From Asaia bogorensis (GTDB taxonomy: Bacteria; Pseudomonadota; Alphaproteobacteria; CACIAM-22H2): a stretch of DNA of 64,000 nucleotides. The translations under genes were made by a program, and so were the position numbers. Location: contig CAMDLT010000003.1 of the NCBI GenBank assembly GCA_945901855.1, positions 62,001 to 126,000 of the forward strand. The letters run 5' to 3'. The notes below the pieces were generated by a model. It did not search any database and was not told where the DNA came from. It saw nothing but the letters and a program-made list of their open reading frames with translations. The first letter of the stretch is position 1; each line of letters begins with the position of its first letter. Below are positions 49,316-53,501 of the stretch, in pieces.

Positions 49316-50002
49316 ATGCGCCGTTTCCCGCCGGAATTTTCCGACCTGCTGACCCCAAAGGGACGCCGCCTTGCGAGCGTGGGCGACAAGCCGTTTTTTG
49401 CCGCAAGCGACCTGATCGACGCCAAACAGGCGGCAGGCGCGTTTTTGCTGCTCGAACGTGACCTTCGCGCGGTGCTGAAGCCGCTGGTGCATGCGATCCC
49501 GCCCGAGACAATTGCAAACCAGACGCGCAACTACCAAGAACGCCTGCCCAAGACCGTGCGCAATCTAGCCGCCGACATCGACGGCGCGCGCAGCAAGGCC
49601 GCCAAAATTGCGCGCGCCATCGGGCTCGATGCCATGATGGGATCGCCGAGCTTTTTTGCGTTTGCCCAGAAACTGTCAGGCCGCAAGCTCGATCCCCAAT
49701 TTGGCCGCCAGGTGCTGCGCTACGGCGTTGGCGACTATGCCGGGCCGCATACCGACCACCACCCGGAGGAGCCGCGCGCCACAGACGGCTATTTCGATTT
49801 GCACCTGACATTCGCAGGCGCAGGCGCCAAACGCCAATTGCTGGTCTATGCGAACGAAGGCCATTTCGACCAAGTGGCGGAGGTGGCGGTTGCGGGCGGC
49901 GTTACGGCCTACCGGCTGCCCTTCTGGCACTACACGACGCCGCTCGAAGGCCCGCCCGATGCCGCGCGCTGGGTCGTGCTGGCGACGTTTTTGTACGCGT
50001 AG
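49316..50002 (+). CDS. 2-oxoglutarate/Fe(II)-dependent oxygenase-like protein
   Basis: 228 residues. The jelly-roll iron site is suggested by RYGVGDYAGPHTDHHPE (HxD, about residues 137-153), and LPFWHYTTPL followed by RWVVLATFLY supplies the distal His and a possible 2OG-binding Arg. Substrate unknown. It follows the hydrolase gene by 30 bases and may be co-transcribed with it. Confidence 0.72.
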   Translation: MRRFPPEFSDLLTPKGRRLASVGDKPFFAASDLIDAKQAAGAFLLLERDLRAVLKPLVHAIPPETIANQTRNYQERLPKTVRNLAADIDGARSKAAKIARAIGLDAMMGSPSFFAFAQKLSGRKLDPQFGRQVLRYGVGDYAGPHTDHHPEEPRATDGYFDLHLTFAGAGAKRQLLVYANEGHFDQVAEVAVAGGVTAYRLPFWHYTTPLEGPPDAARWVVLATFLYA

Positions 50003-50025
50003 AGATATTGCTAAGCAAAATACTT

Positions 50026-50073
50026 TTGACTGTCATCGCGCAATCTTTAATATATACTCTCTTAAGGTATATA
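50026..50073 (+). promoter_or_regulatory. Promoter and inverted-repeat operator of the GNAT-PIN operon
   Basis: TTGACT (50026-50031), 16 bases, then TAATAT (50048-50053). An inverted repeat TATATAC-TCTCTTAAG-GTATATA (50051-50073) starts inside the -10 and extends past the predicted transcription start. A protein bound there would block transcription, as expected for an autoregulated toxin-like or defence operon. Confidence 0.5.
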
Positions 50074-50097
50074 ATCTGAAGAATTTTGGGGCGTGCG

Positions 50098-52254
50098 GTG
50101 TCGAAGATTCGATCCATCCAAATCATCACGCCTGCTGCTGAAACCGAGCGCTTTGTCGATGATGCTCGAAAAGCTGGCGATGCCAATAAGAAAGCCCTTG
50201 GCTTTCTGCCTATCTCTGCATATAGCGATTTTTCAGCTCAAGGCACTCTTTTTATCGCAATTTCCAACGACAAATATGCTGGTCATCTAGCGTTCGGGGG
50301 CAAATTTCCGCATATCAAGATTTGGCAACTGACCGTGGCCGACCCGTATCGCAATTGTGGAGTGGGTCGAAAACTGTTCGACGCGCTGGTGAACTATGCC
50401 ACGCAACGAAACATCATGACGTTGCGGGCCGATGTTGCTGCAGACCTTGTCGCCAACCACTTTTGGGATAAAATGGGACTGGCTGTCGCGCGCACGCGTG
50501 CTGGAAAGACGCCGAACCGGACGATCAATGTCCGCGAGAAACTACTCTCGGATAACGACCTTCTCTCGAATGTTTTGGCAACGAGCATCTCGGGTATTCG
50601 CGATATCGAATTCAAACCGGTCGCGGACAAACTAACATGTATTCTCGATTTGAATTTTCTGATCGACGCTCTGCGACCAAATAGACCGCTTCACGATGAT
50701 GCCATCAAGCTGATGGCGGCTGCCTTGCGGCAGCGAGTGCGACTGTATCTGGCGCCGGAGGCCGACGTCGAGATACAACGAAATGCGCCGACGTCGGCAA
50801 TGGACCCGCTCAAAGTTTTCGCGGACGCATTGCCAAGAATTCCAGCAGTTCCGGAGGCGTCGATCCGAGCGCGTATGCAGACGTTACGTTCGATCGTCTT
50901 TCCGAGCAAACCATTGTCCAAACAATTGACACCGCAAGAAACGAGTGATTTGCGGCATCTGGCATTCTGCGCCGAGCTTCGCATTGGCAGATTTGTCACG
51001 CGAGATCGTGCTTTGCTAGCTGCACGCGATTCGTTGCTCCGAAATTTCGAAATTGATGTCACAACTCCGGCCGATGTTATCTATGACGTTGAGGGTGCTG
51101 AACTCGTCGGCAGCGCTCCAAAAACGGCGGATTCCGAAACGCGCATAATCGTTGAGTCCGCAAGCCCGTCTCGGATTCAAGCGCTGAGGGCAGAAATTCT
51201 GGCCGCTTCGCCCGCCACCTCGGCCGCTCTTGAAACGATTGAATTGACGAATCGTAGTTCGGCTCTAGTCGCAACGCGCGACGGGGCGCCGTTCGCCGTC
51301 GCCTGGGTAAAACAGCAAACGGGTGCCAAGTCAGAAAGCGTCTGGTCAATTGCATTTCTGGCGCCTTCCATCGACGACATTTTAATTGCGGATCAGTTCC
51401 TGGCCAGTATCGTGCATTCGGGGATCGGGATGAAGGAGACCCGGCATGAAATCAATCTGTTCAATGCCGGACCTTTTGTCGTTGATCACTTGAAATCGCG
51501 CGGCTGTTTAGAAGGTCGGCAATTCGCCGCCGATCCACACCGATTATTGAAATTTGCAGTTACCGGATATGTGGATGCGGAAACTTGGCCCAAGTTTGTG
51601 GAAACTCTTCGATCCGCGATCGACTTGGCGCCGATGGGATTGGCAATGCCTGGCCCCAGCGATGCACAAACTGCCCAACTGCGAAAAGGGACTGGTCAAA
51701 TCGTCCCGACGACATGGTTTGAACTTGAAACAGTCACCGGTCCTGTTCTATATTTGTTTCGAACAGATTCGGCCTTGCTTGTACCAATCAATAAAGCTTT
51801 TGCTGAAGAGCTTTTGGGTAGCAGGCAGGGTAATGCCTTTGCAATGCAGGCGGCACGACTGCGGACGGAGCGAGTTTATTTTCGATCAGCAAGGGGCCTG
51901 AAAGCGAAACAGGGGATGCCAGTCATTTTTCGTGAAACGAAAAAAAACGGTGGCTCGGGCGCGGCCATTGGTTGCGCCCGTCTAACGCACTACGGCATCT
52001 ATGATACCGACGTCGCACGCACAAAATTCCGAAACCGAGGCGTGATAGACTTAGATCAATTCGAGCGCGCGGACCGGAAGAAGACCGTGTGCGTTTTGGC
52101 TTTCGACAATTTTCAAGAATTCACGATCGCTGTTTCGCTGAAGAAGCTTCATGAGATCAAAGCCGTGACAGGCACGCAGAACGTTACCGCTGAAACCATC
52201 AAAATCAGCATCGCTCAGAAAATTCTCGAAATGGGCTTTCGCGATGGAAAATAA
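50098..52254 (+). CDS. Multidomain GNAT + PIN + PUA/ASCH-like protein
   Basis: 718 residues from GTG 50098 (a TTG at 50086 is the alternative). Domain order by eye: GNAT acetyltransferase (1-145) with the acetyl-CoA loop YRNCGVGRKL (84-93); PIN-type nuclease domain (about 178-325) with acidic residues D184 in CILDLNFLID, E221, D284 and D303 in TRDRALL; a second acyltransferase-like region (about 380-490); a C-terminal beta-rich ASCH/PUA-like domain (about 588-715). A PIN nuclease plus PUA-like domain points to RNA as target. Base composition is visibly AT-richer than its neighbours, which suggests transfer. It overlaps the ASCH gene by 11 bases. Confidence 0.8.
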   Translation: MSKIRSIQIITPAAETERFVDDARKAGDANKKALGFLPISAYSDFSAQGTLFIAISNDKYAGHLAFGGKFPHIKIWQLTVADPYRNCGVGRKLFDALVNYATQRNIMTLRADVAADLVANHFWDKMGLAVARTRAGKTPNRTINVREKLLSDNDLLSNVLATSISGIRDIEFKPVADKLTCILDLNFLIDALRPNRPLHDDAIKLMAAALRQRVRLYLAPEADVEIQRNAPTSAMDPLKVFADALPRIPAVPEASIRARMQTLRSIVFPSKPLSKQLTPQETSDLRHLAFCAELRIGRFVTRDRALLAARDSLLRNFEIDVTTPADVIYDVEGAELVGSAPKTADSETRIIVESASPSRIQALRAEILAASPATSAALETIELTNRSSALVATRDGAPFAVAWVKQQTGAKSESVWSIAFLAPSIDDILIADQFLASIVHSGIGMKETRHEINLFNAGPFVVDHLKSRGCLEGRQFAADPHRLLKFAVTGYVDAETWPKFVETLRSAIDLAPMGLAMPGPSDAQTAQLRKGTGQIVPTTWFELETVTGPVLYLFRTDSALLVPINKAFAEELLGSRQGNAFAMQAARLRTERVYFRSARGLKAKQGMPVIFRETKKNGGSGAAIGCARLTHYGIYDTDVARTKFRNRGVIDLDQFERADRKKTVCVLAFDNFQEFTIAVSLKKLHEIKAVTGTQNVTAETIKISIAQKILEMGFRDGK

Positions 52255-52699
52255 AGCGGGTGCACTGGTTTCACTGAAACAACGCTTTGCTGCTGCCATT
52301 TTCAGCGGTGCCAAAACTGTTGAACTGCGCACGCGCGCCGTCAGCCTGTCGTCCGGAGATATGCTTCTTATCTACGTAACGACCCCAGTCGGCGAATTGC
52401 AGGGCAGCGCTATTGTAGATTTTGTCGATATCAGAAGCCCGGCAACGATTTGGCGCAAGTACGGTCCATTGACAGCGCTTGATCGCCATGAATTCGACGC
52501 CTATACGTCGGGTCGTGCGGCCGTTTCAGCGATTGGCTTGCGCGAGGTACAAAAATTCTCGATGCCGCAAAGCCTTGCCGCTTTGCGACGTTCAATGGGA
52601 CATTTTTATCCGCCGCAATTCATGACGTTTCTCGACAACGCTCGGCTTGATGCCATGGCCGGAAGTTCGTTGTCGGCACACCGGATCGCAGCCGAATAA
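52244..52699 (+). CDS. ASCH-domain protein
   Basis: 151 residues. N-terminal ASCH/PUA-like fold (about 1-115) with SLKQRFAAAIFSGAKTVELR and DMLLIYVTTPVGELQG, the SIKP-type and LIYxTxP signatures of ASCH proteins, which bind RNA or nucleotides. It starts inside the end of the GNAT-PIN gene and has no clear ribosome-binding site of its own, so it is translationally coupled. With the ASCH-like domain of its partner the operon carries two such modules. Confidence 0.83.
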   Translation: MENKAGALVSLKQRFAAAIFSGAKTVELRTRAVSLSSGDMLLIYVTTPVGELQGSAIVDFVDIRSPATIWRKYGPLTALDRHEFDAYTSGRAAVSAIGLREVQKFSMPQSLAALRRSMGHFYPPQFMTFLDNARLDAMAGSSLSAHRIAAE

Positions 52700-52721
52700 C
52701 AGCGATCCACGACCCGCAGGC

Positions 52722-53501
52722 CTAATCGGCGGCGCGCTTGCCTGTCAGTTCGCTTTTGAGGCCGCGCAGCGATTGCGGGTCGAGGCCTGCCCAATTGGCG
52801 GCGGGCTCTGCCGACACGTCCTTGTCGTAATAGCCCCATTTGCCGAATTCGGTGAAGCGCGCGGGCTTTACCGCGTGCGTTTCGGGCATGATCTTGTAGC
52901 AGCGCCCGTCGCGGCCCAGCAGCGGGATCGGGCGCTTCCAGCGCGTAAACGCACGCCGCATATTCGCCGAATGCTCGCGGTTGGCATCGAACTCGTCGCT
53001 GTCCACCTCGAACAGAAGTTCATAGGCGGCCACGAACTCGTCGATGAAGCGCATATTGACGATCTGCAAATGCGACTGCACCCAGCACCGGTCTTCGAAC
53101 GTCCAGAACACCGACAGGCCGATAAAATCGCGCTCGCGGTCGATATAGGGGAAAAACGGGAAGGTACGGCACGACATCGACCGATTGTCGCGCTCGCAGA
53201 AACGAGCGCCCTTGCATTCGATCGCCACGCAATCTTCGTGCAGGTCGGACAGTTCTTTTTCGGTCGCTTTATCGGGAATCTTGTATTTGTGCCACAGATC
53301 GGTGCGGCTCTGCAGCAGCTTCCATTCGTGCTTGTCGACGATCGGAATGGCCGTATCGGTCGAACAGCAAATCGGCGAGCCGCCATTATGGACGCCGCAT
53401 TTGGCCCCGCAGTCGAACGCCGAGACGGGTGCCACGAACATCTTGTAGATGCGTTCGTACAGTTCGGGCGAGGCGGATTTGGGCGGGCGAATGCGCGACA
53501 T
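52722..53501 (-). CDS. Cysteine-cluster protein (YkgJ-like metal-binding)
   Basis: 259 residues. Eight cysteines lie in two groups: C31, C35, C45 and C46 (DCGAKCG, PICCS) and C91, C96, C102 and C111 (DCVAIECKG, FCERD, SCRTFPFFPYID). The second group resembles the zinc/iron-chelating CxxC-rich domain of YkgJ-type proteins, whose CRTFP-like end is typical. Metal and role are unknown. It is convergent with the ASCH gene and marks the right end of the accessory block. Confidence 0.7.
   Translation of the reverse strand: MSRIRPPKSASPELYERIYKMFVAPVSAFDCGAKCGVHNGGSPICCSTDTAIPIVDKHEWKLLQSRTDLWHKYKIPDKATEKELSDLHEDCVAIECKGARFCERDNRSMSCRTFPFFPYIDRERDFIGLSVFWTFEDRCWVQSHLQIVNMRFIDEFVAAYELLFEVDSDEFDANREHSANMRRAFTRWKRPIPLLGRDGRCYKIMPETHAVKPARFTEFGKWGYYDKDVSAEPAANWAGLDPQSLRGLKSELTGKRAAD

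Follow-up and report, generated by a model that had tools for sequence, protein, structure and literature searches.

Genes A and B, two overlapping genes in the window (the whole 64,000-nucleotide stretch of DNA analysed here), are best read as a probably horizontally acquired RNA-cleaving anti-phage or toxin module, in a variant form that is sister to the predicted (PIN)-GNAT-EVE + ASCH systems catalogued in PADLOC as PDC-M11. To this joint reading, which draws on sequence and profile comparison, we give a somewhat better than even chance. Protein A carries a GNAT domain ahead of the PIN-GNAT-EVE order, its internal GNAT lacks the loop motif of the canonical proteins, and its ASCH partner is homologous to an RNase of determined structure.

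The gene pair and its insertion site

Gene A (50098..52254, + strand, GTG start) encodes 718 residues and overlaps gene B (52244..52699, +; 151 aa) by 11 nt. From its N-terminus, A consists of a GNAT domain of Ard1/RimI-like fold (GNAT1; residues 5-150, 50110..50547, +), in which the RxxGxG/A acetyl-CoA loop is present as RNCGVG at residues 85-90; a PIN domain (residues 179-333, 50632..51096, +); a second region of GNAT fold without the acetyl-CoA loop motif (GNAT2; residues 350-492, 51145..51573, +); and a C-terminal barrel of the PUA superfamily, EVE/ASCH-like (residues 555-714, 51760..52239, +). Gene B encodes an ASCH protein homologous to ZmASCH. Pfam recognised ASCH in B, and in A it placed GNAT at residues 47-127. 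A preliminary description of this DNA had called by eye a GNAT, a PIN, a second acyltransferase-like region, an ASCH/PUA-like end and a separate ASCH protein, and profiles, folds and Pfam agree with those calls. Its account of a low-GC two-gene operon, AT-richer than its neighbours, was borne out by composition: the pair has a GC content of 52.6%, against a mean of 65.0% (SD 1.4, minimum 61.8%) in pieces of its own size taken from elsewhere in the window, and a GC3 of 0.53, against 0.74-0.83 in five neighbouring genes.

The pair occupies an accessory insertion (50003..52721) between two conserved convergent genes that lie outside the module. The upstream flank gene (49316..50002, +) encodes 228 aa without a Pfam or NCBIfam match; the downstream one (52722..53501, -) encodes a Cys-rich protein of 259 aa without a Pfam match, for which the name YkgJ, a guess, found no support in Pfam and was rejected. 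Among 11 genomes of the genus, the pair was found in two (the window's genome and G009), both times between the same two convergent genes, and in seven the site was empty, with the flank genes 6-137 bases apart (between alignment ends). Empty sites include those of G003 and G004, near kin of the window genome, and that of G005, although its flank proteins are 93% and 95% identical to those of G009. In G002 an alpha/beta hydrolase gene (Abhydrolase_1; L037:2183-3427) sits at the module's intergenic site, so the site accepts different cargo; the site of G006 (74% complete) was left unjudged, this genome having no match to the upstream flank gene. The pair is therefore not kept in core synteny by all relatives; such conservation is what the preliminary description had named as speaking against its reading.

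This patchy presence among close kin indicates that the module was gained or lost at a permissive site, and A and B form an accessory two-gene cassette, probably imported from elsewhere. Between the window and G009, protein identity was 42% for A and 54% for B, and 61% and 75% for the flank proteins; one old insertion followed by losses and two separate arrivals would both fit. No recombination mark was identified at the insertion site. At the empty site of G008, a palindromic-looking sequence was seen by eye between the flank genes (L039:1364-1501).

Gain and loss among close kin also speaks against a housekeeping role, and hence against an RNA-surveillance or anti-toxin device in which GNAT1 or PIN would repair or remove aberrant acetylated or modified RNA and so protect the host. 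Bell et al. suggest, in the available text, that PIN-GNAT-EVE may degrade toxic acetylated aminoacyl-tRNA produced by phage GNAT-EVE (PMC7641849). Such a device would leave GNAT1 without a clear role, and we consider it decidedly unlikely.

Relatives, the PIN domain and the two GNAT regions

Protein, profile and alignment searches collected 16 proteins of GNAT1-PIN-GNAT2-EVE layout (window-type proteins), including that of the window. The others come from a Tagaea MAG of the window's genus (G009), a Caulobacter rhizosphaerae plasmid, another Caulobacter, Brevundimonas (twice), an alphaproteobacterial MAG (AlphaMAG), Mitsuaria (a betaproteobacterium), the genomes G374, G227, G365 and G455, three IMG/VR contigs and one Prevotella (Bacteroidota). 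An ASCH gene accompanies all 16, adjacent in 15 and fused in one. The fused protein, from AlphaMAG (L013:3549-6128), has 859 aa.

Matches at E <= 1e-10 were found in four of 385 genomes of the class, the window's own counted. A scan of genome contigs with the single protein gave no match, and an alignment-based scan gave seven loci; the viral scan returned nothing with A1 as query and three loci with A3; no homologue of two query proteins was found in any phage record; and the class of G477, when searched, yielded no further locus. Candidates set aside were L014 (a lone GNAT), L004 (25% identity, one internal stop) and L008, which is a contig of G009 again and not a separate locus; L047 (G660) has a frame of 729 aa but the locus is cut, and it was left uncounted.

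For comparison, a canonical set of seven proteins (L020-L026) was taken from 12 profile matches, L030 being window-type and L027, L028, L029 and L031 being excluded as matching only part of the profile. Four of the seven have a PIN part and three do not; Pfam found GNAT in five, EVE in four and PIN_3 in four, and ASCH genes adjoin. A search of plasmids gave 33 records, of which eight were fetched and seven used as further canonical proteins, L085 being omitted. On its archaeal plasmid, the L085 relative (L085:1501-3002) is split into two annotated genes.

The PIN acids D184, E221, D284 and D/E303 are conserved in 15/15 window-type proteins (Prevotella was left out of the count). The Pfam family PIN_3 falls below cut-off in the window protein and reaches E <= 0.1 in 11/11 aligned members (best 1.6e-6); EVE was matched in 1/11. 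AF2 confidence across the window PIN was middling (block means 57-87), and the fold searches support the GNAT folds and the barrel, domains which took up the result lists. The preliminary description had said that a structure with no PIN or GNAT fold would tell against it; GNAT folds were found, and the PIN domain is backed by profiles together with the kept acids.

GNAT1 resembles RimI/Ard1 and, more weakly, streptothricin acetyltransferases, and the Caulobacter homologue bears the annotation 'GNAT family N-acetyltransferase', as might suit an ordinary metabolic or antibiotic acetyltransferase whose other domains are decorative. We hold that reading to be extremely unlikely, given the conserved PIN acids, the ASCH partner in 16/16, the collinearity with PIN-GNAT-EVE set out below, and the finding that GNAT1 (E <= 1e-12) was seen only within the fusion (3/3 matches in 398 genomes of the phylum, own included, all inside frames of 723-729 aa). 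The strict pattern RxxGx[GA] occurs in register in 7/15 GNAT1 domains and xxxGx[GA] in two more, the Gly being replaced by K, R or N in the other 6/15; a plain pattern count gives eight loops, one of them an out-of-register match. Since the loop varies among the 15, GNAT1 activity is uncertain in some members; the canonical GNAT has K at the Gly position too.

The GxKxGE loop is present in 14/14 canonical proteins (11 with PIN and three GNAT-EVE; seven found via the PADLOC profile and seven via tblastn in plasmids) and in 0/16 window-type GNAT2 regions (0/15 by alignment, with the Prevotella protein added separately). The pattern [RQ]xxGx[GA], also looked for in GNAT2, occurs in 0/15. We excluded 33 viral loci from the loop count, because the scan pattern used there already contained the GxKxGE loop. 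A window-type profile aligned with the seven canonical-set proteins in one collinear stretch of 475 columns, which runs from PIN as far as the C-terminal end (probability 98.8), residues 180-717 of window A aligning to positions 2-499 of the canonical profile. Because this collinear alignment begins at PIN, it is GNAT2 that corresponds to the GNAT of the canonical proteins, with GNAT1 as an extra domain. Comparison of GNAT1 with the canonical GNAT profile, as a guide to a possible origin by copying, was weak (probability 31.9). From these motifs, the working acetyltransferase seems to be the N-terminal GNAT1, which is presumably catalytically active, and the internal GNAT2 seems to have decayed. 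The variant shows which parts evolution has kept (PIN acids and barrel in A, together with the ASCH partner), the acetyltransferase motif being located in another domain, and two domain-specific mutants within one protein could test acetyl transfer.

In a tree of the PIN-GNAT2-EVE part, calculated without the GNAT1 columns, one branch (100/100) separates the 16 window-type from 10 canonical rows; the tree is unrooted, omits L086, whose gene model is short, as well as the three GNAT-EVE proteins that lack PIN, and was flagged for long branches meeting at that split and for odd letter make-up in several rows. The Prevotella row lies nearest the canonical side. In the simplest history, GNAT1 was gained once and GNAT2 lost its loop; an ancestor with two intact GNATs, the first of which was lost in the canonical line, would be a tenable, less simple alternative.

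The ASCH partner, neighbourhoods and a candidate mechanism

Protein B is homologous to ZmASCH (ZMO0922, PDB 5guq/5gus; E 8e-14, 129 residues), which was shown by experiment to be a magnesium-dependent RNase acting on single-stranded RNA and in whose cleft Tyr47, Lys53 and Ser128 contribute to binding or cutting, according to the sections available (PMC5615036). Mapped by hand from the printed alignment, Tyr47 corresponds to Y44 in B, Lys53 to G50 and Ser128 to F126; the Tyr/Lys/Ser set is thus incomplete in B, the Tyr being kept and the two others replaced. The counterparts of ZmASCH Y47 and Q127 are invariant in 14/14 aligned B proteins. When plasmids were searched with ZmASCH, 35 records matched: 26 matches lie <=1 kb from a canonical (PIN)-GNAT-EVE match, two lie beside a window-type gene, one is on the same record at 2.4 kb, and the remaining six are beside none of the 30 listed (PIN)-GNAT-EVE rows (three further rows are unlisted). 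With 28/35 matches within about 1.1 kb of a (PIN)-GNAT-EVE-type gene, ZmASCH very probably is a member of the (PIN)-GNAT-EVE partner family, and the homology ties an orphan RNase structure to a candidate defence family. The PDB name of ZmASCH mentions a helix-turn-helix, like the HTH-ASCH partners described for alphaproteobacteria. Its numbered neighbour, ZMO0921, is called a hypothetical protein in the available part of one paper.

Among the neighbours searched by family, no recognised defence gene stands next to the window pair. At other loci, genes for nSTAND3 and HNH proteins lie nearby, the HNH protein matching type IV weakly (L005, plasmid); a serine recombinase lies upstream and type III RM and DUF1828/PDC-M24B downstream (L032); type IIG RM, AAA and HNH_5 lie upstream of A (L090, Prevotella); and a tyrosine integrase adjoins (L034). 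The viral contig L033:1-12154 carries the pair, a secretin gene some 8 kb from it and, by eye, small coat-like proteins, which is suggestive of a filamentous phage. HNH_5 genes abut the pair in different phyla, upstream of A (L090:5097-5969) and downstream of B (L030:188-973, G455), and an HNH_5 endonuclease is a possible third component in some loci. Flanks for the family search were picked by eye, by their defence-like gene lists, with the flanks of L009-L012 outside the set, so the defence neighbours count as support and not as a rate.

Judged by these domains and contexts, A and B most likely form an RNA-cleaving module that arrests translation and is directed against phages. Protein A would combine in one chain a nucleic-acid-reading barrel (EVE/PUA fold), a PIN ribonuclease and an N-terminal acetyltransferase, GNAT1 appearing to have assumed the role of the internal GNAT, which has decayed and may now serve as a scaffold; protein B would be a ZmASCH-type RNA-binding partner. 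Phage infection (or loss of B) may act as the trigger, with the PUA-fold domains recognising modified nucleic acid of the phage or the host. The PIN domain would then cut RNA (tRNA or mRNA), and GNAT1 may acetylate a substrate attached to RNA, for example charged tRNA, so that translation would be halted; B might either restrain A or present the RNA. The open-licence literature (preprints outside its scope) yielded no experimental test of any (PIN)-GNAT-EVE system, so that we infer every functional step, RNA targeting by the pair included. The preliminary description had proposed a stress, toxin or defence module that cuts or modifies RNA; an RNA-cutting defence or toxin function is the best reading here as well, and 'RNA-directed' in the sense of guided found no support.

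A plain toxin-antitoxin addiction pair, with A as toxin, B (ASCH) as binding or repressing antitoxin and phage defence incidental, is possible if rather unlikely. The overlapping operon, the accessory distribution and carriage on a plasmid and mobile elements would suit such a pair, and toxin-antitoxin function was among the predictions of Bell et al. in the text available (PMC7641849). An A-B fusion as in AlphaMAG would be odd for a toxin with a labile antitoxin, and B is related to an RNase. To our knowledge, A also far exceeds the PIN and GNAT toxins in size, and B is not related to a known antitoxin fold; both points count against an addiction pair.

We regard as unlikely a further possibility, a mark-and-cut immune enzyme in which GNAT1 replaced GNAT2, an acetyl mark placed on an RNA-linked amine would license PIN cleavage of that RNA, and the EVE barrel, with the ASCH partner, would read or position the mark. 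If it were true, no part of the family would have a relative characterised by biochemistry earlier than ZmASCH.

Comparison with known systems

Fusions of (PIN)-GNAT-EVE type with an ASCH partner were described by Bell, Wolf and Koonin (2020), who cite Iyer et al. 2013, predicted toxin-antitoxin or defence systems and, in the sections available, stated that no module of these systems had been experimentally characterised at that time (PMC7641849). According to the legend of Fig. 7 in that paper, further domains frequently occur, so the extra-GNAT case may have been seen there and left unnamed; the term 'GNAT-PIN' is absent from the paper (PMC7641849). The terms PIN-GNAT, GNAT-PIN and GNAT-EVE occurred in no other paper found in the open-licence literature (preprints outside its scope), and the available text of further literature on ASCH, PIN and GNAT does not describe the N-terminal-GNAT layout. 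The system is thus not new, as the preliminary description had thought possible, being preceded by the available account of Bell et al. (PMC7641849) and by PDC-M11A/B; new, as far as our searches reached, are the extra GNAT at the N-terminus, the decayed loop of the internal one and the link to ZmASCH.

PADLOC matched A to PDC-M11A (E 1.1e-5, C-terminal third only) and B to PDC-M11B (E 5.6e-20). The profile PDLC04421 was matched by 8/11 aligned members, the window among them, and by the Prevotella homologue over profile positions 3-458 (of 486) in the part that follows GNAT1. We equate PDC-M11, where PDC presumably stands for phage defence candidate, with the systems of Bell et al., because the layout of the proteins found by PDC-M11 agrees.

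The two-protein PIN system DS-5 protects against phages and was judged likely no toxin-antitoxin pair, deletion of its partner gene being viable without cost and abolishing phage protection, as given in the available text (PMC13092281). It resembles the window pair in having two genes, for a PIN RNase and a second protein, and differs in that its partner is DUF5830/AcrIF4-like and not ASCH. ZmASCH, homologous to B, shares with it the Y47 and Q127 positions but has K53 and S128 where B has G50 and F126. GNAT toxins of the TacT and AtaT type acetylate aminoacyl-tRNA. They resemble the window protein in combining a GNAT fold with a putative toxin role, and the RxxGxG/A loop occurs in window GNAT1; in contrast, the window GNATs are fused within a 718-aa multi-domain chain, and no ribbon-helix-helix antitoxin gene was seen. 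With VapBC the window-type proteins share the PIN acids D, E, D and D/E (15/15), but no small VapB-type antitoxin adjoins A, whose neighbours are the ASCH gene and two flank genes without a family match.

The (PIN)-GNAT-EVE + ASCH systems share with the window-type pairs the PIN-GNAT-EVE order in one chain and an ASCH partner, separate or fused. A defence context is seen at L005, L032 and L090, while the window pair behaves as accessory and has no recognised defence gene among its searched neighbours. The canonical chain begins with PIN (or with GNAT in the GNAT-EVE form), whereas the window protein and its 15 relatives add an N-terminal GNAT. Further differences are the lack of GxKxGE in the window-type internal GNAT (a loop seen here and lying outside the published definition), an ASCH partner without HTH in the window, no AAA_17-type gene among the searched neighbours of the window pair, and the position of window-type proteins on their own side of the tree. 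On account of the extra N-terminal GNAT, we class the window pair as a variant of PDC-M11 and not as a plain member.
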